41,808 nucleotides of DNA from a virus: IMG/VR virus record IMGVR_UViG_3300028557_000076, positions 1-41,808 of that record; one strand, given 5' to 3'. The translations under genes were made by a program, and so were the position numbers. Shown in pieces: positions 1-41,808 of this stretch. The notes beneath the pieces are model-generated. The model was not told where the DNA came from. It did not search any database and saw only the letters and a list, made by a program, of their open reading frames with translations. Each line of letters starts with the position of its first letter. The stretch's first letter is position 1.

Positions 1-52
1 TTACAGCTGTTCCGGAAGTTGTAGGTATGTTTAAACTATTAGTTTGTGCCAT
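1..52 (-). CDS. Tail fibre protein, 5' end cut by the window edge
   Basis: The ATG at 52 (reverse) opens a frame reading MAQTNSLNIPTTSGTAV to the window edge, identical to the starts of the fibre genes at 1672 and 40372. If the genome is circular, this is the start of the gene at 38777-40372. Its leader carries the same sequence as the other copies. Confidence 0.75.
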   Translation of the reverse strand, partial: MAQTNSLNIPTTSGTAV

Positions 53-120
53 TTTTTACCTTTTATGTTTTCTCATTCCAGGGAACATATCCTATTTCAA
101 TTGCTATTCTTCTTTTTACA
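1..120. repeat. Direct repeat R, left copy (fibre-gene start plus leader)
   Basis: These 120 bases are identical to 1621-1740 and to 40321-40440. They hold the first 17 codons of a MAQTNSLNIP-type fibre gene (minus strand) plus its leader. The match stops at base 121, where the flanking genes differ. If base 1 follows 40320 in a circular genome, the repeat continues to at least 223 bp (40218-40440 matches 1518-1740). Confidence 0.95.
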
Positions 121-122
121 AG

Positions 123-254
123 TCAAACAACGCCAGCACCAAATGTGACTAAAGTGCTATTATTAGAAGCACTCATTGCGGAAAAACCAGTTCCATTACC
201 CTTAAGTAGGGTATTGTTTGTCACTGGCGCATTGTGACTATTGGTGCTTACCAT
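123..254 (-). CDS. 43-residue fibre N-terminal-like protein
   Basis: This short frame starts at 254 and ends with TGA at 123, 14 nt downstream of the end of fibre A (269-1672). It begins MVSTNSHNAPVTNNTLLKGN, which resembles the opening of the neighbouring fibre genes (MVATNSLNI, MAQTNSLNI, MALTNSVN). Only the virion-anchoring N-terminus remains; there is no shaft or tip. It could be a truncated fibre gene left by recombination, or a small capping protein that competes for the fibre attachment site. Function is inferred only from the N-terminal likeness. Confidence 0.55.
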   Translation of the reverse strand: MVSTNSHNAPVTNNTLLKGNGTGFSAMSASNNSTLVTFGAGVV

Positions 255-268
255 CTACTTCCCTTTTT

Positions 269-1672
269 TTAAGCTACTTTGTATCCGCTTACATAACTTG
301 ATAAGTTTGTTCCTGATATCCCAACAGTCAGTGTAGAACCAGCTGCTACAACTTCAAATGTTGCTGTATTTGTTGCAAGCATCCTTGCAGTAACTCCAAA
401 ACTTAGGTTTAATTCTCCAGACACAACTGAAGGAGTTGGGTTCAGTAATGGCCCAAGATATGTATTCCCTGCTATCAGCATTCTTATTTGTGCAGATGTT
501 TGCACCACAAGACCTGTTAAAGTAATTGACATATCAAAATGATAAATTCCGTCAATTGGAGCAGTAAATACACCGGCAGTAGTAAAGTTAGCCCCTTGAT
601 CATAAGATTCTGTTAACGCATTTCCACTTCCGAAAGTAAACACAGTACCATCGCCAGTAACGTTTGAATCTGCTGTACCTAAATAAGCCAGGAATGCAGG
701 TTGAAGTGGAAGTGTTAAAGTGCCGATTCCATCATAACTTGATACTAAGGTTCCTGTGGCAGGTGATGTTCCTTGCCATATACATAGCCCTGTATTTGTT
801 GGGGCAGATGCACCTATATTCCATTGATTTCCGGGCAAACTAGGATTTATTCCTAAATATGCAAATGTGGAAGATGCTCCACTTTGGCAAGTAATTGTTA
901 ATCTTGCATTACTTGCGTTGGTATTTGCAGTGTTTTGGATACTTAAAGCTACGTTTGAACCGCTATTACTTGCTGATACAAACAATCCACTTGGGAGGGT
1001 AGTAGATACAGAAGGGACGCCAGAAGAATTTGTTACTAGAACCGCGCTGTTTGCCGTTGTTATTTGACCCACTACGTTTGCTGCAGAGCTATAAAGGATA
1101 CGGTTTATGGTCGTTGTCGCTGGGTATGTAGCTGTTGACCACACAGGCGCGGATGATGCAACAGATTGGAGAATCTGGTTTGATGTTGCAGTTGAAGGTA
1201 AAGAAGATCCAGAGCTATCAAAAGGGGAATATATTGCATTCCAACCGGCAGCAGCTGTACTTACAAGCGATATGACAGTAAGAACGAGTTGAGTGTTTGC
1301 AGCCATAGCTTGGATTGTGTTAGCGCCAGACGATTGTACGGTTACTACACCAGAAGAATTGTTAATTATTTTAAATGTTTGTCCAAGAACTAAAGTGGAT
1401 GTCACAGGCATTACTACAGTCTGAGTGGTAGATCCTGTAAAGAATTGCTGCTCAGCTGAAGCTACGGTCAAAGTTGTGGTACCTGCTGCGGTAGCTGTCG
1501 TTGCATACCCGGAGATTGATGAATTAAAATAGGAATTGCCACTTGAATCTCTTGATACAAGGTTAGATGTCCCAGATGATGCGCTGTAAGAAAGATTGGA
1601 AAAAGCTGTTCCAGTTCCTATTACAGCTGTTCCGGAAGTTGTAGGTATGTTTAAACTATTAGTTTGTGCCAT
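269..1672 (-). CDS. Tail fibre A with C1q/TNF-like tip
   Basis: 467 residues, rich in Ser, Thr, Asn and Gly as expected for a trimeric fibre. Residues 1 to about 146 are shared, with about four substitutions, with fibre B (38777-40372); the rest is unrelated. The C-terminus carries a C1q/TNF-like beta-sandwich signature (FTAPIDGIYHFDMSITLTG near residue 370), a common receptor-binding head. It is the fourth gene of a fibre run reading leftward from 4348. It lies between two direct copies of repeat R, so recombination could remove it (with 123-254) as a 1,620 bp cassette. Receptor-binding role is inferred from composition, domain and position. Confidence 0.8.
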   Translation of the reverse strand: MAQTNSLNIPTTSGTAVIGTGTAFSNLSYSASSGTSNLVSRDSSGNSYFNSSISGYATTATAAGTTTLTVASAEQQFFTGSTTQTVVMPVTSTLVLGQTFKIINNSSGVVTVQSSGANTIQAMAANTQLVLTVISLVSTAAAGWNAIYSPFDSSGSSLPSTATSNQILQSVASSAPVWSTATYPATTTINRILYSSAANVVGQITTANSAVLVTNSSGVPSVSTTLPSGLFVSASNSGSNVALSIQNTANTNASNARLTITCQSGASSTFAYLGINPSLPGNQWNIGASAPTNTGLCIWQGTSPATGTLVSSYDGIGTLTLPLQPAFLAYLGTADSNVTGDGTVFTFGSGNALTESYDQGANFTTAGVFTAPIDGIYHFDMSITLTGLVVQTSAQIRMLIAGNTYLGPLLNPTPSVVSGELNLSFGVTARMLATNTATFEVVAAGSTLTVGISGTNLSSYVSGYKVA

Positions 1673-3108
1673 TTTTTACCTTTTATGTTTTCTCATTCCA
1701 GGGAACATATCCTATTTCAATTGCTATTCTTCTTTTTACAGAAAAATAGCAATTTTTGAACCTTAATTTATTTCTTATGTTAAATCAGGATTTCCAACGC
1801 TTGAAATTACAACAAACGTTGTGTTGGCTGTAACACAAACAAACTTAACGCCGTCATATCTGTTTGTTGAAGCAAGAGCTGTAGTACCTGCACTTGAACC
1901 AAAGTTTAGCGTTTGTGAGTTTGTGGCAAGGTTAATAGACCAACCGCCGGCTCCTGCTCCAGCTACTGCAAATACTGTTCCTACAGCGCATGTTGCAGGA
2001 GGAGTAAATGTACAAAGAGTACCATTGTTAGATACATACCCTTGGTTTACTGCCATCGTTTGTGAAGCGGATGTTACGTTAAGGTATGGAGCTTGTGCAG
2101 ATGGTGTTCCAGCTGCTTGGAAGGAAGGAAGAGCGCCTGCACCGTTAGATGTAAGAACTTCGCCAGCAGATCCAATACCAACTTGTTGTAATACACCTGT
2201 AGATGTAGTACCACCAGTTAATATTGCATAAGCAGTAAGAGTCGCAAGACCTGTACCACCACCAGCAACTACCGCTGTTCCAAATGATCCGTTAGCAGAT
2301 GAACCGCCAGAAATAAATGGAACACCAGCTGTAGCAGATGGAGCAATGCTAGATATGGCGTTAGATGCGCCACCGAGTAAAACGTTGTATTGTGTTACTG
2401 GAGTTTCTGTAAATACACCAGTTGTAGAGTTATATGACACAACTCCTGAGGAATTGATATTAAGGCTGTTTGTAGCTACCATGATAAATCCTTTTTTAAT
2501 TCTTGTTTAAACTAGAGTCCATGACCCTTCAGATCCAATTGTAACCCACTGGGTATTGGCTGATCGGTATACCAACTGCAATGTACATCCTATAGCTGTG
2601 CTTTCAGCTCTTCCTGCTACTGCTGATGTTGAGTTAGCAAGACGTATTGTTTGTCCAGCTGCTGCTTGAACAATTACTACTGATGCTGTTTGTGCTGAAA
2701 TGATTACTACATCGCCTTGCGTTGGGCTTGCTGGAAGGGTTCCTGTCACGGATGCAGTTACAAAATAACCATTACCTGCAGCAGCCGTAAATGGTGCCGC
2801 TATATCACTCCAAGATATCGAAGAACTAGATCCAGTAATTGTTAGAGTGTTTGTCCCAGGGGTTCCCGTTACTGTAATTCCTCCACTTCCGACTAACGAC
2901 ATGTTACCATTGGTATCAGGAGATACTGCACCACCTGTGTTGCCTGTTAGCGAAGTTAATCCACTAGCTCCACTGATTTGAGTCCAGGTAGCTGTTACCG
3001 TTCCATTAAACGCTGAAAGAGAAGTTAATACATAAACAGTGTTACCTGTTTCATTAACCCAGTTTTTACCTATGTTGTATAAAACATCTGAAGATGAAAG
3101 ATTCCTAA
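1518..3108. repeat. 1,591-bp repeat identical to the right end of the window
   Basis: Every line I compared matches 40218-41808 with a constant offset of 38,700 and no difference seen. It covers the first 51 codons of fibre A, repeat R, the gene 1775-2482 and most of 2507-3202. Left of 1518 the match continues to about 1235 as roughly 85-90% homology, mostly synonymous, then stops. The right end of the contig is therefore either circular overlap with a cassette missing, or a true duplication. Confidence 0.95.
1775..2482 (-). CDS. Tail fibre-associated protein, MVATNSLNI class
   Basis: 235 residues. The N-terminus (MVATNSLNINSSGVVSYNST) belongs to the same anchor class as fibres A, B and C. 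The middle is Ala/Gly/Ser-rich. The C-terminal 100 residues form a beta-rich domain (GGWSINLATNSQTLNFGSSA; NRYDGVKFVCVTANTTFVV) that resembles the C-terminus of 38054-38773. It starts 24 nt after the end of 2507-3202 in the same direction. An identical copy is at 40475-41182. Probably a short fibre or fibre-connecting protein. Confidence 0.7.
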   Translation of the reverse strand: MVATNSLNINSSGVVSYNSTTGVFTETPVTQYNVLLGGASNAISSIAPSATAGVPFISGGSSANGSFGTAVVAGGGTGLATLTAYAILTGGTTSTGVLQQVGIGSAGEVLTSNGAGALPSFQAAGTPSAQAPYLNVTSASQTMAVNQGYVSNNGTLCTFTPPATCAVGTVFAVAGAGAGGWSINLATNSQTLNFGSSAGTTALASTNRYDGVKFVCVTANTTFVVISSVGNPDLT

Positions 3109-15462: not shown

Positions 15463-16566
15463 TTACATGTCCGTAAGCATGGCTCTCCAATAAATCACGT
15501 TGGTATTAGCGCCAACAAGCACAGATGATGAAAGGTTAGAACCTGCACCAACACCTACTACAAATCCTTGACGTGTGTTATTCACAAACGCACCAGAAAT
15601 TGCAGGACCATTGATTGTAGATACGCCATTGACTACAGGAGATGGATAAAGATTTCCACCACTGTAAACAACACCACCTGTATTAACATCGCCAACAGCT
15701 AGCATTTGTGCTGCTGTAAGGCCCGGTACGCTAGATACAGCTATGTTTGATGTATAAGCTGTATACGACGTTGAGTTGATGTTAACTGTTACTTGTGTAG
15801 AGCTATTGACAACTGTTACATAACCATACATAGGCGAGCCAGGTATGAGTATATTAGGAAGTGAGTTGAGCTGAGTAATTCCCCACGCTGAAGGAATTCT
15901 AAACGCAACTTCTTGTCCCACTACTAAGTTATGTGGTGCAGTTGTGCTTACAACAGTTGTAGAACCAGTTGTTACAGCTGTAATGAAGGACACTTCAGGG
16001 GAGTATAGAAAAGGGTAAAGAACCTTTTTCACAAACGCACCTGTAGGTGATCCAGACAATGCAGTGTAAGCAGATTGGTTAGTATTCCATGGAATTGTAA
16101 ATGTTGTAGCACCTGTTACTGTCACAACAAAAGGAATGTCACTGATTTGTGGCATACCTGTTGTAGAAGACTGATACAGACCTTGGAAAAGCACAATGTC
16201 ACCAGAAGAATAACCATGAGCTGATGCCGTTGTAACAACAGCAGGGCTAGCTTTAGTAATGCTTGCGATTTGTATTTGTGTTCCATATTGCAGAGAGAGA
16301 CCAGCGCTAAATGTGCTGATACCATTTGCAACAACAACGTCAGACACTAGCACTGGAGTTGCGTTATACACGCCAGTTTCTAATGCATAACCTTGTCCCA
16401 TAGCAACATCCCAATATGCAGATACAACAGCGTTAGCTGAAGGTGCTGCAAGAGCTGCGCTATAGTTCCATATCTCTACAGTTGTTGGTTGAAAAGGAAG
16501 GTATACTGCCTTTTGCGCACCTGTAGATGTAAAGCTACCTTTTGCTATTCTTGAATATTCAGCCAT
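15463..16566 (-). CDS. Capsid-associated beta-repeat protein
   Basis: 367 residues from MAEYSRIAKGSF at 16566, just after the capsid stop (TAACATG) with a G-rich ribosome site. A frame extending to 16650 overlaps the capsid gene and is unlikely. Two beta modules of the type 'hG..xGdxVxF...' are visible (SPAVVTTASAHGYSSGDIVL and STTVVSTTAPHNLVVGQEVA). The C-terminal QMLAVGDVNTGG segment is shared with the next gene. A head decoration or minor capsid role is inferred from its place directly behind the major capsid gene. Confidence 0.6.
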   Translation of the reverse strand: MAEYSRIAKGSFTSTGAQKAVYLPFQPTTVEIWNYSAALAAPSANAVVSAYWDVAMGQGYALETGVYNATPVLVSDVVVANGISTFSAGLSLQYGTQIQIASITKASPAVVTTASAHGYSSGDIVLFQGLYQSSTTGMPQISDIPFVVTVTGATTFTIPWNTNQSAYTALSGSPTGAFVKKVLYPFLYSPEVSFITAVTTGSTTVVSTTAPHNLVVGQEVAFRIPSAWGITQLNSLPNILIPGSPMYGYVTVVNSSTQVTVNINSTSYTAYTSNIAVSSVPGLTAAQMLAVGDVNTGGVVYSGGNLYPSPVVNGVSTINGPAISGAFVNNTRQGFVVGVGAGSNLSSSVLVGANTNVIYWRAMLTDM

Positions 16567-16567
16567 G

Positions 16568-18839
16568 TTACACCCCGCTAGCGTTAGAAGCTCTTGTGCA
16601 GAGCAGGTTTCTAATAGCTGTATCTTGTGTGATTGCTTGCGCTTGTGCAAACTTCACTGCAAGAGTAGCGTTTTGTGCCAACATACCAGAATAGTAAGGA
16701 TCTCTATAAATCAGATTCATGGAATATCCATCCTGATTTATATGAGTAAGCGCCTGCTTTCCAACGACGGTGTTATAATAAACATCGCGGCTGTTTGCAG
16801 ATGCATTCCTTGCTACTGGCGCTTCAGAGCTTGTTAGAATTCTGATGTTAAATACAGAACCCCATTCGCTAGGAAGTGCTGATGCATTGGTTGGGTAGTT
16901 CCAATTGTTTAGAACACCTTGTCCAACGAGGCCATCAAAATCCGTTTGTAGTTCAGTGCTCGAGAGCATGAAATACGAACTTCTTATAGGACCTGTACCA
17001 AAACGATCCATACCTTCGATACCAGTCATGAATTTATATGCATTATTTGTCTTATCTATTACTTAGGTGACCTAGACTACAAACATCTAGGCGGTTAGTC
17101 ATTTCTGCTAACTCTGTATATCTCTATACAGGTTGGACTATCGCATCTCCTTTCGGAGCCCTTGAGTTTAGTCTCTCAGCCTGCACGGTTTCCCTGCTTG
17201 GCCCTTGTTATCCGTCTGCTTATGCAGCGAGGAACTCCAAGTCAATTATCAAAAGTTTATACTCGACACAAAGTTTATCGAGTGTTGTAGCAACTAATGA
17301 GAAGTCAGAAACTCCTAAGTTAGTTGGGTTATCGTTGTTGCTTCCGCCACCTGCGTTCAACTGGCTAGCAGCTGATACGACGTAGTCACGGAGGATGAGA
17401 TCTTCCTATCTGTTACTTTTAAGACCTATCCCTAGGCGGGGAAACCTCTTCGGATCTCCCTCTCGGATTTTATTTATAGTCCGAGTACTGACTTTCGCAT
17501 CTGTATTTCTACAGTCCAACCGCTAAGTCGATCAGGCTTGTCATTTAACTAAGCTAATGCAACAATATACATGCATCTACACACATAAAAAAGGAGTATG
17601 TAAATGCCTGTTATCCCTTACGAAAAAAAGATTTATGAACCTCTCATTCTTGCTTATCTTGCTGGTATTATTGATGGTGAAGGATCTTTGTGTATTTATC
17701 GCGTTAATCCTGCCAGATATAACCGATATCAGAATCCTAATTTTAGGTCTGTCCTTAACATCTCTAATACTAAAAAGGAGCTTTTTGATTGGCTTGAGAA
17801 CCATTTTGGTAATCTCAATAAATCTAAAAAACATAAACGCTCTATCTTTAAGAAAAACTCTACTCATGAACGATGGATTTATGAATGGGTTGTTCAAGGT
17901 CATCGACTTCTCGATATCTGCACTCAAGTTTTGCCCTATCTTGTCCTTAAAAAAAGACAATGTGAGCTTATTATTGAGTTTAGAAAGACCTATGATAATC
18001 AAAAAGGATGCGGTGCGCATTGCCCTCTTGACCCCAATCTCATTGCTATAAGAGAAGATATTAGAGTTGAGATGTGTCGTCTCAATGCTAAAGGTTTTCT
18101 TAAAGCTGATATTGAACATTTTGATTCCTTACAATCTTAGTTAAACCATTGCCCCTTGTTGCCCTTTCACTACGGTGATAAGGGTTTCCAAGTCAATCAG
18201 GTTAGATTTATACAGGCCTACTATCTCAAGCCTGTCTCATGGCCACGGCAAGTCTTTCTGAAACCCAAGCGAGAACTCCCTCTTGATCTTGCAGTATGAC
18301 CTGCTCATTGATTCAATTAGCCATTAAGCTGCTGCACAATCTTCAATGCAGCCGGTTCCAAAAAACGCCATTTGCGCATCAATGATATCCCTTTGTGGAA
18401 CTTGAGCTGGAGGATCAATCCCCGAGTTACCAAGTTGCACTGTAGGAGGCTGTAAACTTCTTGGACGCATAAAGCGGCAAGTAGTACCACCATTTGCTGG
18501 CATGGAGACCTTATCGCAAATAGTGATGTAATTCCATTCTGTTACTTTTATGACCTATCCCTAGGCGGGGACTTTCTCTACTTATCCCTCACTGTGTTTC
18601 CACAGTGTTCAGAGCACCGCATCCACTTTTGTGGTCTTCTCGCTTGCTACGTTCACGGTCCTTTCAGGTTCCGCCTTGTTGCCTTCAGCATTATCTGGTC
18701 AGGTTTTCAAGTCAATTAGAGAAGATTTTACTACCACAAACTATTCTATGGTAGGAGTTGGAACATAGAGCATCGCAGGCGCAAGCGACTGGAGGATCAT
18801 TGGTCCAAGATTCCCTGTATTTGTAATTTGACCTGACAT
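16568..18839 (-). CDS. Major capsid protein, five exons interrupted by group I introns
   Basis: Exons on the minus strand: 18839-18748, 18534-18346, 18313-18229, 17405-17277 and 17050-16568, joining in frame to 325 residues. Each 5' junction ends in T that would pair with G in the intron guide sequence. The joined protein reads through junctions sensibly: PTPT-MNYITI, FFGTGC-IINEQVILQDQ, MRQA-EDLILRDYV, ATTLD-TNNAYKF. The order of features (NEQVxLQDQ, RxxEDxxxRDxV, DNPTNL) recalls N4-gp56/P22-type major capsid proteins. Position after scaffold and before capsid-associated genes agrees. The second interruption is only 32 nt and lacks a ribozyme core, so without removal or bypass the protein would end early at a TAA near 18325. 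Start: ATG 18839 with AAGGAT upstream. Confidence 0.8.
17051..17276 (-). ncRNA. Group I intron 4 of the capsid gene (226 nt)
   Basis: P1 pairs exon ACTCGAT with intron GTCGAGT, with the last exon U opposite G. The core shows ATTGACTTGG, AACAAGG, then GACTA, a CTCC-gaaa-GGAG hairpin, ATGCG and TAGTC, which fit the P7/P8 and S elements of group I introns. The 3' end (GCCTAG hairpin, AAGTAATAGATAAG) ends in G. No endonuclease gene. It probably self-splices from the capsid transcript. Confidence 0.8.
17406..18228 (-). mobile_element. Group I intron 3 of the capsid gene (823 nt) carrying an antisense endonuclease
   Basis: P1 pairs exon CAGGCT with intron AGGCCTG (U opposite G). Then come CTGATTGACTTGGAAACC, a GGGCAACAAGGGG block and, after a long insertion, GGACT, a CTGT-agaaa-ACAG hairpin, ATGCG and AGTC. 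The 3' end CCTAGG...AAGTAACAGATAG is almost the same as in intron 1. The insertion holds a plus-strand LAGLIDADG gene (17604-18140), opposite to the intron. Splicing gives MRQA-EDLILRD. Confidence 0.85.
17604..18140 (+). CDS. LAGLIDADG homing endonuclease, antisense to its host intron
   Basis: 178 residues with a single LAGLIDADG motif near the N-terminus (LAYLAGIIDGEGSLCI). One motif and this length suggest a homodimer of the I-CreI kind, which cuts an intronless allele so the intron is copied in. AAGGAG lies 8 bases before the ATG. The gene is transcribed opposite to the intron and capsid gene, so it needs its own promoter or read-through from the other side, and its antisense mRNA would overlap the intron. 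The overlapping minus-strand frame at 17577-18119 is judged a shadow. Confidence 0.85.
   Translation: MPVIPYEKKIYEPLILAYLAGIIDGEGSLCIYRVNPARYNRYQNPNFRSVLNISNTKKELFDWLENHFGNLNKSKKHKRSIFKKNSTHERWIYEWVVQGHRLLDICTQVLPYLVLKKRQCELIIEFRKTYDNQKGCGAHCPLDPNLIAIREDIRVEMCRLNAKGFLKADIEHFDSLQS
18314..18345 (-). other. Intron relic: P1 of a group I intron without its core (about 32 nt)
   Basis: Exon GCTGCAT pairs with GTGCAGC 8 nt further on, with the final U opposite G, exactly the P1 geometry of the three intact introns. The following CTAATTG also matches their sequence, but where they continue CTTGGAAACC this one jumps to exon sequence (AATCAATGAGCAG). Core blocks AACAAGG and ATGCG are absent. The piece is 2 modulo 3 in length and brings TAA in frame, so it interrupts the capsid frame. 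The exact 3' boundary is 18314 (ending in G) or 18311. Confidence 0.7.
18535..18747 (-). ncRNA. Group I-like intron 1 of the capsid gene (213 nt)
   Basis: P1 pairs exon CTACCAT with intron GTGGTAG (U opposite G). Then CTAATTGACTTGAAAACC, a GGCAACAAGGCGG block, a CCAC-aaaa-GTGG hairpin followed by ATGCG, and a 3' end CGCCTAGGGATAGGTCATAA followed by AAGTAACAGAATG. This 3' end is nearly identical to intron 3. P7 pairing is less clear than in the other two. Splicing joins codon AT|G in frame (PTPT-MNYITI). Confidence 0.75.
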
Positions 18840-18979
18840 GGATTTTTATCCTTGTTGTCAATTAGTGACATATAGATCCGTGGACGAGAACGTATTACGT
18901 CCGTTTTCTAGTCTGTCTAGATGGAAGTTGCGAAATCTTCCTTACGCGAGTTGCTAGTTTAACGTACTAGTAGACGAAA

Positions 18980-19004
18980 GAGCTGAGGTAATTAGTCTCA
19001 GCTC
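18980..19004 (-). terminator. Hairpin upstream of the capsid gene
   Basis: GAGCTGAG, 9-nt loop, CTCAGCTC: a perfect 8-bp inverted repeat, followed on the minus strand by TTTCG. It lies between 19030-19287 and the capsid start. The weak T-run suggests partial termination or an mRNA-processing signal that sets capsid expression apart from the genes before it. Confidence 0.55.
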
Positions 19005-28045: not shown

Positions 28046-28063
28046 AAATTTTCCTTTTTATAA

Positions 28064-28135
28064 CTGCGCCTGATGGATTCGAACCACCGACTAACGGCTT
28101 AACAGGCCGCTACTCTACCGCTGAGTTAAGGCGCA
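28064..28135 (-). tRNA. tRNA-Asn (anticodon GTT)
   Basis: A full cloverleaf folds on the minus strand: acceptor TGCGCCT/AGGCGCA, D stem ACTC/GAGT, anticodon stem GCGGC/GCCGT around loop CTGTTAA, T arm GGTGG-TTCGAAT-CCATC, discriminator G. No CCA is encoded. The virion proteins are very Asn-rich, so extra tRNA-Asn may help late translation. Its 5' half overlaps the end of the HNH gene 28110-28505. Confidence 0.95.
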
Positions 28136-28505
28136 ATAAATGTTGATTTTTTACCGAACAACTTCTAGAACAATGAAAGTTTTTAGTTTTTCCTATCTGA
28201 GATTTGTAATCTTTTGTAAGTCTTGAATATATTTTTTTACAATATGGGCAAATTAAAAATGTAACATTTTTTTCTTTCTCATTTTGATGTAACTTACTGT
28301 GAGTTGATCTTTCTATCATTTCTAAATTTTCAAATCTGTTGTCCCTTTTATTTTTGTTTTTGTGATGAATATCATATCCGTTTGGTGGAACTATTTTGGT
28401 ATTTTCCCACCATACTAAAATATGTTCATATGCATATTTTCCCCGGTATTTTTTTCCTGGGTAATCTTTTGGAGCTTTAATTAAAGTATACTGTCCATTT
28501 TTCAT
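28110..28505 (-). CDS. HNH endonuclease next to and overlapping tRNA-Asn
   Basis: 131 residues. HNH core: YEHILVWWENTKIVPPNGYD, IHHKNKNKRDNRFENLE, then a second Cys motif CPYCKKIYS...CSRSCS. The IHHKN and DNRFENL match homing-type HNH nucleases in phages. The last eight codons and stop lie within the tRNA gene. This may indicate the nuclease gene landed beside the tRNA, with its coding end supplied by tRNA sequence. Confidence 0.85.
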   Translation of the reverse strand: MKNGQYTLIKAPKDYPGKKYRGKYAYEHILVWWENTKIVPPNGYDIHHKNKNKRDNRFENLEMIERSTHSKLHQNEKEKNVTFLICPYCKKIYSRLTKDYKSQIGKTKNFHCSRSCSVKNQHLLRLNSAVE

Positions 28506-35444: not shown

Positions 35445-35867
35445 TACAGGATAGACACTATGCGCCTACCCCTTGATTAACCCCTAAGTATTTAAATTAT
35501 TTATTTAACACGGAACCCTTTTATTAGTCAATCACCCTCCCTTGAAAGGGAAGGCATGTCGTGAGACAAGCTTAGTTGACCAGCCTTAGTCCCGCAAGGG
35601 GCTATGTTAGAGAAGAATATATAGGCACCGTAGAATGCTTCCTCAGTTCTACGCTCTGCGGTTAATGGTTAAACAGATGTAAGGGTTAAGTCAGTGCTGT
35701 TAACATTAAACCTTCTTATAACTTTGGCGAGGGGAGACCACCAAAAGGTGGCGTTACAAGGCCCTTACGGGCATTTGGGGGAGCAATCCCCCTTTTATTA
35801 ACAATTTAAAAGAGGAGCGGCATTTCCTCCCCATCCCAAAGAATGGGGTCTCCATGCCGTCAATATA
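35445..35867 (+). ncRNA. Non-coding region rich in hairpins, possible structured RNA
   Basis: No convincing frame. From left to right: CCCTT-ga-AAGGG (35539-35550), CGTAGAA / TTCTACG (35629-35653), CCACC-aaaa-GGTGG (35738-35751), GCCC-ttac-GGGC (35761-35772), then the terminator at 35777-35796. Beyond it GGCAT...CCCCAT...ATGGGG...ATGCC (35819-35858) forms a two-part hairpin right before 35868. About 300 nt of ordered stems ending in a terminator suggests an RNA gene. Confidence 0.5.
35777..35796 (+). terminator. Intrinsic terminator with GCAA tetraloop
   Basis: GGGGGA, loop GCAA, TCCCCC, then TTTTATTA on the plus strand. Ends the early operon or the candidate RNA before it. Confidence 0.85.
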
Positions 35868-38053: not shown

Positions 38054-38773
38054 TTATACTGTTACGCAGTTCCCTTCTAAAATTGTTGCAAAAAACCCTG
38101 TATTTGCTACATTGCAAACGATACGAATCCAATCGCCCCTGTTTAATGATGCAATAGATCCAGCAGCTCCTAGAGTGGTTTGATTTATACCCACAGTTAT
38201 TTGCTGTCCTGCGCCTTGTTTTATTATCCAACCAGCAGCATTCATTGCTACAACTTCATAGGTATCGCCAACTGCTGATGTGGCCGGAAGGGTAAATTCT
38301 AGCTGCGCACCACCATTTGAAAACCATGCAGCATTATCCGCAAGAGTTCGGTTAGTTGTCGTTACTGTCCATGTAGAGCCAGAATTATTTGCTGACAAAA
38401 TTATTCTATTGTTTGCATTGTCTGATGTAATTGTCAAAGACCCATCAGTATTTATTAATTGAATGTTGTATGGATTTGGCGATCCGGAAGAACCTGAGCT
38501 AGATACCGCGGTATTTGCTGTGTCTGATAAAGTTTGCAATAAACTATTAACTATAGAAATTAGGACCCAGTTTGCCTGGACATACCCACTTGTAGAGCTA
38601 AAACTATTTAAATAATACAAGTTTGACGTGCTGTTATTTAACCAAAATTGACCAAGTGGCCATGGGGCACCTACATCCGCTGTAGTTGGATTTCTGGTAT
38701 CAATCCATATACCACCTGTGGGCGTAGTACCGACACCCTGACCATATGCTTGCTGTGATGTGTTAAATCCCAT
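38054..38773 (-). CDS. Tail fibre-associated protein, 'NPTTADV' class
   Basis: 239 residues. Opening GIWIDTRNPTTADVGAPWPL, then QFWLNNSTSNLYYLNSFSST matches the anchor modules of 2507-3202 and 3578-4348. The C-terminal domain (EFTLPATSAVGDTYEVVAMN, then AAGWIIKQGAGQQITVG) resembles the end of 1775-2482. It lies between fibres B and C with 3- and 7-nt gaps. Confidence 0.7.
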   Translation of the reverse strand: MGFNTSQQAYGQGVGTTPTGGIWIDTRNPTTADVGAPWPLGQFWLNNSTSNLYYLNSFSSTSGYVQANWVLISIVNSLLQTLSDTANTAVSSSGSSGSPNPYNIQLINTDGSLTITSDNANNRIILSANNSGSTWTVTTTNRTLADNAAWFSNGGAQLEFTLPATSAVGDTYEVVAMNAAGWIIKQGAGQQITVGINQTTLGAAGSIASLNRGDWIRIVCNVANTGFFATILEGNCVTV

Positions 38774-38776
38774 TTT

Positions 38777-40372
38777 TTAGCCTATTTGAGTAGTTAGCGT
38801 AGTTATCGAACCTACAGTAATTGTCCCAGTTGTCGTTACTCTAGCATAATATTTAGCAGGTACTACAAAGCTAAATCCATATGGTAATGCTGTTACAGTT
38901 ATCGATGCAGTTACAGCTTGTGCAGTTGGGGTGTTAGTAGGTCCAACACCGACTAGTATTACCGCCGCCGTAGAAGAAGTAATCTCCATGGATACATTTA
39001 CAAGAATTGGGTAGTTAGCGGTATTTTGTAAAGCTGTACCCACTGCTAATTGACCAAATGCTGTACTTGCTGTATTTGCGGCTACAGGGGTCAAGCATTG
39101 CAACTGGTCATTAGATATGTCTTGAGATGTTAGGTAAGGAGTTGGGGAACCTGCAACTAATGTTGGATTTGCAATACCTGAGATAAAAGCTCTTGAAAGT
39201 TGATTAGCTCCAGTTCCTGTGCTAGCACCTATTGCAAGAGAATTGCTTCGACCTGTTACGCCACTATTTTTTATTAAAATGTTATTGGATTCTGCTCCAG
39301 TAAGAGAAATTCCAGAATTAAGGCCTAGAGCTAAATTGTTGTCTCCAGTTAATACATTTTCTAAACTTTGGCTTCCTATTGCAAGATTGTTATCCCCACC
39401 ATTTAAAAGCCTCAAGCTGTAGTACCCTATAGCCAGATTTCCAGCATCACTAGCACTTGTAAATAAAGCATTTGTCCCAATTCCCAATACCCCTGAAACT
39501 ATTTCCCCGGGAGATAAAGCTTGAAGACAATTGTGCCCTATAGCTATTACATCGCTTCCTTCCGTATTATTTGATTGAGAAAAGTTTCCTATACTTATGC
39601 ATCGTTCGTTTTTTTCTGAACCTTGCATAGCTTGCGATCCAATAGCGATGCAATCATCATTTGAAAGTGCTGAAAACAGAGCTGCACTTCCTAATGCCAC
39701 ATTTCTTGTTCCAGTTAATGGATTTGTTGCTCCGGCATCTTTTCCTAAAAGTGTATTAGAAGATCCATCTGTAATAGATAATGTTACATTTGGTGTAGCC
39801 GCATTAAAACGGACTGAGCGGCCGCAATCATATGTAGAAGTACCAGCTTTTATTGTTACCGCATTTGTTGAAAATGCAGTGCCCACATCTCCAGTAAATT
39901 GGATTGAATTTGTTCCTGTTAATAAAGCGTAGGCTGCATTCCAACCGGCGGCAGCTGTACTTACAAGCGATATGACAGTAAGAACGAGTTGAGTGTTTGC
40001 TGCCATAGCTTGGATTGTGTTAGCGCCAGATGATTGCACGGTCACTACGCCAGAAGAATTATTGATGATAGTAAACGTTTGTCCAAGAACAAGAGTGGAT
40101 GTCACAGGCATTACTACAGTCTGAGTAGTAGATCCTGTAAAGTACTGTTGTTGAGCAGAGGCTACAGTAAGCGTAGTTGTACCTGCTGCGGTGGCTGTGG
40201 TTGCATAGCCAGAAATAGATGAATTAAAATAGGAATTGCCACTTGAATCTCTTGATACAAGGTTAGATGTCCCAGATGATGCGCTGTAAGAAAGATTGGA
40301 AAAAGCTGTTCCAGTTCCTATTACAGCTGTTCCGGAAGTTGTAGGTATGTTTAAACTATTAGTTTGTGCCAT
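38777..40372 (-). CDS. Tail fibre B with YadA-like shaft
   Basis: 531 residues. The first 146 match fibre A closely; the rest differs. The shaft (about 190-400) repeats the pattern seen in NVALGSAALFSALSNDDCIA and NLAIGYYSLRLLNGGDNNLA, a YadA-like beta-roll, ending with RAFISGIANPTLV and a beta tip. In circular order it would follow the small frame 123-254. Receptor specificity probably differs from fibre A because the tips are unrelated. Confidence 0.8.
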   Translation of the reverse strand: MAQTNSLNIPTTSGTAVIGTGTAFSNLSYSASSGTSNLVSRDSSGNSYFNSSISGYATTATAAGTTTLTVASAQQQYFTGSTTQTVVMPVTSTLVLGQTFTIINNSSGVVTVQSSGANTIQAMAANTQLVLTVISLVSTAAAGWNAAYALLTGTNSIQFTGDVGTAFSTNAVTIKAGTSTYDCGRSVRFNAATPNVTLSITDGSSNTLLGKDAGATNPLTGTRNVALGSAALFSALSNDDCIAIGSQAMQGSEKNERCISIGNFSQSNNTEGSDVIAIGHNCLQALSPGEIVSGVLGIGTNALFTSASDAGNLAIGYYSLRLLNGGDNNLAIGSQSLENVLTGDNNLALGLNSGISLTGAESNNILIKNSGVTGRSNSLAIGASTGTGANQLSRAFISGIANPTLVAGSPTPYLTSQDISNDQLQCLTPVAANTASTAFGQLAVGTALQNTANYPILVNVSMEITSSTAAVILVGVGPTNTPTAQAVTASITVTALPYGFSFVVPAKYYARVTTTGTITVGSITTLTTQIG

Positions 40373-40474
40373 TTTTTACCTTTTATGTTTTCTCATTCCA
40401 GGGAACATATCCTATTTCAATTGCTATTCTTCTTTTTACAGAAAAATAGCAATTTTTGAACCTTAATTTATTTC

Positions 40475-41182
40475 TTATGTTAAATCAGGATTTCCAACGC
40501 TTGAAATTACAACAAACGTTGTGTTGGCTGTAACACAAACAAACTTAACGCCGTCATATCTGTTTGTTGAAGCAAGAGCTGTAGTACCTGCACTTGAACC
40601 AAAGTTTAGCGTTTGTGAGTTTGTGGCAAGGTTAATAGACCAACCGCCGGCTCCTGCTCCAGCTACTGCAAATACTGTTCCTACAGCGCATGTTGCAGGA
40701 GGAGTAAATGTACAAAGAGTACCATTGTTAGATACATACCCTTGGTTTACTGCCATCGTTTGTGAAGCGGATGTTACGTTAAGGTATGGAGCTTGTGCAG
40801 ATGGTGTTCCAGCTGCTTGGAAGGAAGGAAGAGCGCCTGCACCGTTAGATGTAAGAACTTCGCCAGCAGATCCAATACCAACTTGTTGTAATACACCTGT
40901 AGATGTAGTACCACCAGTTAATATTGCATAAGCAGTAAGAGTCGCAAGACCTGTACCACCACCAGCAACTACCGCTGTTCCAAATGATCCGTTAGCAGAT
41001 GAACCGCCAGAAATAAATGGAACACCAGCTGTAGCAGATGGAGCAATGCTAGATATGGCGTTAGATGCGCCACCGAGTAAAACGTTGTATTGTGTTACTG
41101 GAGTTTCTGTAAATACACCAGTTGTAGAGTTATATGACACAACTCCTGAGGAATTGATATTAAGGCTGTTTGTAGCTACCAT
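40475..41182 (-). CDS. Second copy of the MVATNSLNI-class fibre-associated protein
   Basis: 235 residues, identical to the product of 1775-2482. Either a genuine duplicate or the same gene seen twice because the contig overlaps itself. I favour overlap. Confidence 0.75.
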   Translation of the reverse strand: MVATNSLNINSSGVVSYNSTTGVFTETPVTQYNVLLGGASNAISSIAPSATAGVPFISGGSSANGSFGTAVVAGGGTGLATLTAYAILTGGTTSTGVLQQVGIGSAGEVLTSNGAGALPSFQAAGTPSAQAPYLNVTSASQTMAVNQGYVSNNGTLCTFTPPATCAVGTVFAVAGAGAGGWSINLATNSQTLNFGSSAGTTALASTNRYDGVKFVCVTANTTFVVISSVGNPDLT

Positions 41183-41206
41183 GATAAATCCTTTTTTAAT
41201 TCTTGT

Positions 41207-41808
41207 TTAAACTAGAGTCCATGACCCTTCAGATCCAATTGTAACCCACTGGGTATTGGCTGATCGGTATACCAACTGCAATGTACATCCTATAGCTGTG
41301 CTTTCAGCTCTTCCTGCTACTGCTGATGTTGAGTTAGCAAGACGTATTGTTTGTCCAGCTGCTGCTTGAACAATTACTACTGATGCTGTTTGTGCTGAAA
41401 TGATTACTACATCGCCTTGCGTTGGGCTTGCTGGAAGGGTTCCTGTCACGGATGCAGTTACAAAATAACCATTACCTGCAGCAGCCGTAAATGGTGCCGC
41501 TATATCACTCCAAGATATCGAAGAACTAGATCCAGTAATTGTTAGAGTGTTTGTCCCAGGGGTTCCCGTTACTGTAATTCCTCCACTTCCGACTAACGAC
41601 ATGTTACCATTGGTATCAGGAGATACTGCACCACCTGTGTTGCCTGTTAGCGAAGTTAATCCACTAGCTCCACTGATTTGAGTCCAGGTAGCTGTTACCG
41701 TTCCATTAAACGCTGAAAGAGAAGTTAATACATAAACAGTGTTACCTGTTTCATTAACCCAGTTTTTACCTATGTTGTATAAAACATCTGAAGATGAAAG
41801 ATTCCTAA
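41207..41808 (-). CDS. Second copy, truncated by the window edge, of the 2507-3202 protein
   Basis: The frame is open to the edge at 41808 and identical to residues 32-231 of the gene at 2507-3202; the start would lie outside. An internal Met at 41602 is not the start. Confidence 0.75.
   Translation of the reverse strand, partial: RNLSSSDVLYNIGKNWVNETGNTVYVLTSLSAFNGTVTATWTQISGASGLTSLTGNTGGAVSPDTNGNMSLVGSGGITVTGTPGTNTLTITGSSSSISWSDIAAPFTAAAGNGYFVTASVTGTLPASPTQGDVVIISAQTASVVIVQAAAGQTIRLANSTSAVAGRAESTAIGCTLQLVYRSANTQWVTIGSEGSWTLV

Follow-up and report, generated by a model that had tools for sequence, protein, structure and literature searches.

The major capsid gene of a 41.8-kb virus record (IMG/VR record IMGVR_UViG_3300028557_000076, positions 1 to 41,808; here called the window, meaning the whole 41,808-nt stretch of DNA that was analysed) is interrupted by a 32-nt insert, which has the splice signals of a group I intron and lacks the ribozyme core. 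The gene lies on the minus strand (ATG 18839 to 16568), its product matches the PHROG 1357 major head protein, and spliced alignment revealed four interruptions within it, namely intron A, the 32-nt insert, intron C and intron D. Comparable coreless inserts were found in the capsid and portal genes of related phages. In the capsid gene, their splice signals covary with the exons, their removal restores the protein and a core-bearing intron is constantly found downstream. We propose, with a probability of about 0.8, that a neighbouring intron provides the ribozyme by which these coreless introns are spliced, most likely from the next downstream core in the same transcript.

The 32-nt insert and the splice signals of coreless inserts

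Spliced alignment to an uninterrupted homologue placed the insert at 18314..18345 (minus strand), with the position and length given in an earlier note on this DNA. Deleting it joins GGCTGCAT to AATCAATGAG and yields ...FFGTGCIINEQV..., i.e., FFGTGC-I-INEQV, the same sequence as in insert-free relatives. The note had also recognised that the insert breaks the frame; reading in frame 0 stops at the in-frame TAA at 18326-18324 (...CIEDCAAA*). The P1 helix was likewise as described there, formed by GCTGCAT at the 3′ end of exon 2 (18352-18346; exon 2, 18346..18534, minus strand) and the guide GTGCAGC (18337-18331), with a U.G pair at the splice site. The other parts of this mini-intron are the loop TGAA (18345-18342), the P10 strand GATT (18341-18338), the linker following the guide, and the omega-G at 18314. 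The P10 strand had been overlooked; it lies directly 5′ of GTGCAGC and is complementary to AATC, the first bases of exon 3 (85 nt, 18229..18313, minus strand, from spliced alignment). A supposed conservation of the bases CTAATTG was not borne out, as the final G alone is conserved.

Used as a query, the last exon identified 175 related viral contigs, of which 80 were analysed. The flanking peptides were 18 nt apart in 55 of the 80 contigs, and 50-61 nt apart in four contigs and in the window. We also considered a single-base indel, with frame 2 (...RFLEPAALKIVQQLNG...) as the true protein and a homopolymer error in the sequence; this reading was dropped because the 55 contigs with 18-nt spacing encode a GC(I)INEQV-like sequence without any RFLEPAALKIVQQLNG-like peptide. 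When 2.9 million viral contigs were searched for the pattern of the P1 hairpin, 32 stretches were returned; nine of these were this capsid site, all of them short, and none of the nine records contained a full-length intron at the site. Sites are named by the residue and codon phase at which they fall in the spliced capsid-protein alignment, the present one being 91.2. Ten distinct phages share the site-91.2 insert, which is 32-44 nt long and has the unvarying form GGCTGCAT-NNNN-GATTGTGCAGC, with the final G standing before AATC or AATT. AATT is the single variation of P10 at this site, and the pairing is kept through a G.U pair.

A total of 45 coreless capsid inserts were retained at four sites, 88.0 (12), 91.2 (10), 104.0 (21) and 114.0 (2), after the removal of duplicate contigs and of three poorly aligned loci with diverged or cut genes (L022, L154 and L203). 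In-frame residue insertions at 203, 212, 247 and 248 were also excluded before counting. Sites 69 and 81 of L149 represent one full intron that had been mis-split and were left out of the next-insertion count and of the P1/P10 insert set; site 81 of L183 and L205 was retained as core-bearing despite mis-set ends. Most of the matches listed by pattern scans for site 88 and for the intron at site 122 were unrelated sequences, one further pattern search likewise gave many unrelated matches, and capsid-homologous loci alone were used. Most of the inserts are 30-79 nt long, and ten at site 104 measure 325-987 nt. Nine of these ten (946-987 nt) carry an open reading frame (ORF) of approximately 290 residues with two LAGLIDADG-like motifs recognised by eye, which follows the 5′ splice site and precedes the guide sequence; the two ORFs tested both matched Pfam LAGLIDADG_1. 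Judging by these ORFs, the nine inserts are homing-endonuclease (mobile) introns without a ribozyme.

The splice signals were consistent across the whole set. All 45 capsid inserts have a U.G-ended P1 of 6-8 bp, in which the guide is paired to the 5′ exon, and a P10 of 3-7 bp, in which the part of the guide directly 5′ of the P1 strand pairs with the 3′ exon. A P10 helix is common among group I introns without being universal. Here it reached 4 bp or more in 44/45 inserts versus 1.7% in a null set of random stretches from the same coding sequences, and in 40/45 cases the combined P1 and P10 score of the true junction was unmatched by any other T-ended junction of the same coding sequence. The guide follows synonymous changes in the exon at site 88 (ACTGG/ccagt versus ACCGG/ccggt; TTGGT/GCCAA versus TCGGT/GCCGA) and at site 104 (GTGTTA/taacac versus GTATTA/taatac). 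Because the spliced alignment had favoured U...G boundaries, all placements preserving the protein were counted. The protein permits one to three placements for each insert, and the one with U before the insert and G at its end was unique in 54/54 capsid and portal inserts; the terminal G (omega-G) was present in 54/54. No P3-P8 core was found in the 45 capsid inserts, the short ones having 30-79 nt versus the 116 positions of the core model, and core model R1 (45 sources) matched within the window at introns A, C and D only. Inspection of the linkers, by eye only, for a match to the partner core or for a GTAA-like motif common with the 3′ ends of full introns gave nothing consistent.

Core-bearing introns beside the inserts

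Twenty-five small introns, including A and D of the window, have P3, P4, P5, P6, P7 and P8 in common. In the alignment of their cores, 97.5% of the cells were paired, a level reached in 0/500 shuffles, and 20/27 pairs were changed on both sides in some sequence. Intron C (823 nt, 17406..18228, minus strand), the core of which is split by an ORF, was assigned as a group I intron through its core model matches alone (18103-18213 and 17483-17602); its P3 (TCTAACC/GGTTGGA) and P7 (CGACTT/AAGTC) were identified by eye. The Rfam model RF00028 left the introns of the window unmatched at the gathering threshold, and also at E values up to 10 for 16400-19000, and in 15 loci it matched one intron alone, at site 90 of L021. 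As the introns have a well-supported core, we regard these misses as a limit of the Rfam model. That intron (2585-2847 of L021, 79 bits) is a canonical group I intron by the Rfam model, unlike the others of the capsid gene. Across the group, the capsid gene has approximately 28 core-bearing intron sites, which is unusually dense, with endonuclease ORFs in both sense and antisense orientation.

Cores were assigned by motif; 12 introns in which the motif was missing were counted as core-bearing by their length of more than 130 nt. The next downstream insertion was core-bearing for 44 of the 45 coreless capsid inserts; in the 45th case (L205) the locus was cut, and core matches were found further downstream in its record. 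The exon between insert and core measured 21-91 nt in 43/44 cases. An upstream core was absent for 20/45 inserts, which argues that a downstream core suffices. Seen from the introns, a coreless insert preceded those at 96.2, 98.2, 101, 116.2 and 122 in 40/40 cases, those at site 120 in 3/6 and those at site 144 in 1/6. Among 75 loci fetched without reference to the insert (distinct loci after the removal of four duplicates and L022), 21 had both insert and core, 50 had neither, four had the core only and none had the insert only (Fisher p = 6e-15). When R1 was run on 23 whole carrier records, the matches were confined to the capsid gene in 16, and five records (L095, L051, L427, L201 and L277) gave a single core match, directly downstream of the insert.

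Seven carrier records had a further core, located in the gene for a P22-like portal protein. From 80 portal loci, the 15 with a frame break near the start were aligned together with five further regions; L469 and L476 (cut or divergent) and five hairpin loci were omitted from the counts. Nine distinct coreless portal inserts were found at sites 6.1, 21.2, 31.0 and 35.0, with a P1 of 6-9 bp and a P10 of 3-7 bp. Among 12 portal loci with a core, an insert was located upstream in ten and was absent in two (site 40). This result was unplanned and serves as an independent test of the capsid pattern. The pairings of insert site with core site numbered 11 in the capsid gene and six in the portal gene.

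The five hairpin loci (L514, L519, L521, L523 and L487) contain a different short insert near portal codon 35, 48 nt long in four of them and 51 nt in one. It comprises a hairpin of approximately 17 bp, the stem of which differs in sequence yet stays paired, and an in-frame stop. It is preceded by CGG (Arg) and followed by CGN (Arg) TGG, and relatives have one Arg. Without the P1, P10 and final-G logic, this insert looks like a translational bypass element.

Several observations weigh against splicing by a neighbouring core. The distance between insert and core was 168 nt in L427. Cores occur without an insert at capsid site 120 (3/6), at portal site 40 (2/2) and at every capsid core site that precedes 96; the presence of a core therefore does not demand an insert. 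R1 misses some introns (no match in L010 and L048), and a single core therefore means a single detectable core; the portal-gene core in 7/23 records implies that a different core could act. The counts are not independent events, because the sequences are related. P1 is invariant in all 10 site-91.2 inserts, and most of the covariation was contributed by sites 88, 104 and 114. Finally, a P9.0-like element to recruit the 3′ splice site of the insert was not found.

Proposed mechanism and competing explanations

Splicing itself, the core that acts, the order of the steps, their course in cis or in trans and the recruitment of the 3′ splice site are what we infer from the sequences. The mini-intron would provide the splice substrate only, i.e., a 5′ splice site after U, a guide for both P1 and P10, a linker often containing an in-frame stop, and a terminal G. 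For the insert of the window, the ribozyme would be supplied by the core of intron C, 85 nt away. This core would dock the P1 of the mini-intron, and guanosine would cleave after GGCUGCAU. With the terminal G of the mini-intron bound, the core would then ligate the two exons, both lined up by a single guide. Separately, it would remove its own intron through its own P1. The earlier note had offered four options, a core supplied by a sister intron, ribosomal bypassing, a population mixture and an assembly deletion; the first agrees with the data, since the capsid inserts retain P1, P10 and the omega-G and nearly always have a core-bearing intron as their next downstream neighbour.

Artificial spliceozymes are Tetrahymena-derived group I ribozymes engineered to remove an intron in trans (PMC4094466). 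As in the phage inserts, the interior sequence of their substrate is largely free, but spliceozymes are engineered and intermolecular (PMC4094466), whereas the phage inserts are natural, apparently act in cis and bring their own guide (P1 and P10). A core elsewhere was found for the individual substrates (44/45 capsid inserts, L205 through the search of its record), and 10/12 portal loci with a core also had an insert. As the defining P3-P8 core was looked for and not found, the insert does not count as a group I intron in the strict sense; to judge from its signals, it works like a spliceozyme substrate.

Splicing in trans, by the core of another transcript or of an excised intron RNA and not by the next core in cis, is the alternative that survives best, and we consider it unlikely. 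It draws on the engineered ribozymes that remove introns in trans (PMC4094466) and on the further portal-gene core of the seven records. However, a detectable core outside the capsid gene is absent in 16/23 records, five records have a single core beside the insert, and a core lies downstream of the insert in every case with downstream sequence. Splicing by a distant core is possible in some phages.

Ribosomal bypassing, as in T4 gene 60, was judged very improbable. T4 gene 60 also contains a short frame-breaking insert in a phage gene (PMC5009743), most of the present inserts are in the short range with a stem-loop at the 5′ edge and in-frame stops, and site 91.2 has an Ile codon before the gap and another at its end. 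In T4 gene 60, however, ribosomes skip between matched GGA codons (PMC5009743), whereas synonymous take-off and landing codons were found in 0/35 phase-0 inserts, which have splice signals instead. At site 91.2, bypassing would drop one Ile that is present in relatives. The nine inserts of 946-987 nt with an internal gene also speak against it, and it gives no role to P10 or to the final G.

The broken DNA frame could also mean that the insert is a dead leftover and the capsid gene defective or redundant, which appears even less probable. A single capsid gene was found in 14/14 records searched, the exons are highly conserved, P1 and P10 covary, and the core accompanies the insert. The term relic, used in the earlier note, is wrong if it means a dead leftover: the element is maintained, is found again at eight sites in two genes, and exists in one form with a homing endonuclease gene. 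An assembly deletion or a population mixture, with a full intron at site 91.2 in the real phages, has a negligible probability: the window is known as an assembled sequence, but the nine records with this insert in 2.9 million contigs are all of the mini form, insert length varies while the signals do not, and such events cannot explain 54 inserts in many independent contigs. Both of these last explanations agree poorly with splice signals that covary and are present at several sites of the two genes.

Group I introns that are mobile through a homing endonuclease gene resemble the inserts in the U.G pair of P1, P10, the terminal G, the LAGLIDADG gene and their location in essential phage genes; the phage inserts differ in having no internal P3-P8 core. 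The group III introns of Euglena chloroplasts are likewise reduced and thought to depend on parts from elsewhere, but are derived from group II introns. Tandem group I introns surround a very short exon (23 and 34 nt) in orf142 of Twort and in the 23S rRNA of Coxiella, and in tandem constructs one core can use the distal 5′ splice site across the short exon (PMC10136302). Each of these introns has its own core and exon skipping is discussed (PMC10136302), whereas here the first intron is coreless and the exon must stay. The capsid gene of Cluster J mycobacteriophages contains a group I-like intron with an antisense LAGLIDADG-like ORF, the splicing of which was demonstrated by RT-PCR (PMC3706429). 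This resembles the group I-like introns and the antisense LAGLIDADG-like ORF described here, but it is a single large intron, and a coreless partner is not described in the accessible part of that paper (PMC3706429).

Remaining features and Ala-Ala-stop endings

The remaining parts of the window capsid gene, all on the minus strand, were delimited mainly by spliced alignment. Exon 1 occupies 18748..18839 (aligned from 18830, with the ATG at 18839 read from the sequence) and is followed by core-bearing group I intron A (213 nt, 18535..18747; core model match 18605-18732, 95 bits). Downstream of intron C lie exon 4 (17277..17405), core-bearing group I intron D (226 nt, 17051..17276; core match 17129-17262, 98.7 bits) and exon 5, which runs to the stop (16568..17050). 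The endonuclease-like ORF within intron C (178 aa, 17604..18140, plus strand) is antisense to the capsid gene. It matched PHROG 5046 'HNH endonuclease' (E 6.9e-24), a LAGLIDADG-like motif (LAGIIDGEG) was identified by eye, and there were no Pfam matches at 0.001. Elsewhere, the window contains a HEARO RNA (RF02033, 136 bits) at 35527-35741 (plus strand) and a tRNA-Asn (gtt) gene at 28063-28136 (minus strand). At a distance of 38,700 bases, 1-3108 and 38701-41808 contain ORFs of matching length, and with this same offset the final 60 bases of the window are also present earlier in the record, which suggests an end overlap of up to approximately 3.1 kb. Records of metagenome-assembled genomes that contain capsid relatives name unrelated phyla and are likely mis-binned.

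The unspliced in-frame reading of the capsid gene ended in Ala-Ala-stop in 39/45 coreless inserts and in 39/96 core-bearing introns. In the other two frames, this ending occurred in 0 and 0 of 45 and in 1 and 0 of 96, respectively, and in shuffles at 1.6% and 0.25%. The extension into intron D ends in ...LEFLAA*, and at site 88, where an insert has no such tag, RLAA-stop or RLVA-stop is often encoded by the shifted exon itself. In the portal gene, the ending was found in 0/9 inserts and 0/12 core-bearing introns, and it is therefore no by-product of intron structure. As ssrA tags end in LAA, we infer that the capsid Ala-Ala-stop is a putative degron, which would mark the unspliced, truncated capsid protein for degradation. 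Neither a natural coreless group I intron nor an intron-encoded ssrA-like tag was found in the literature by title or beginning of the abstract, a coverage that mostly leaves out subscription papers.

It seems rather probable that the inserts constitute a natural class of mobile 'satellite' introns, which are empty or contain a homing endonuclease gene, have dispensed with the ribozyme and depend for splicing on that of a neighbour, combined in the capsid gene with an in-frame degron that destroys the unspliced product. A single catalytic RNA would then work for several introns in the same gene, as a group I counterpart of a step toward the spliceosome. If true, a natural self-splicing ribozyme removes introns besides its own, and these introns are its dependent substrates, providing a living and testable model for the turning of a catalytic RNA into a general splicing machine. 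The Ala-Ala-stop pattern, if it is a degron, would amount to quality control that is built into the gene and acts on incomplete splicing. Homing endonuclease genes would have a new way of life in ribozyme-free mobile introns, and the finding would explain frame-broken essential phage genes that are annotated as pseudogenes or assembly errors.
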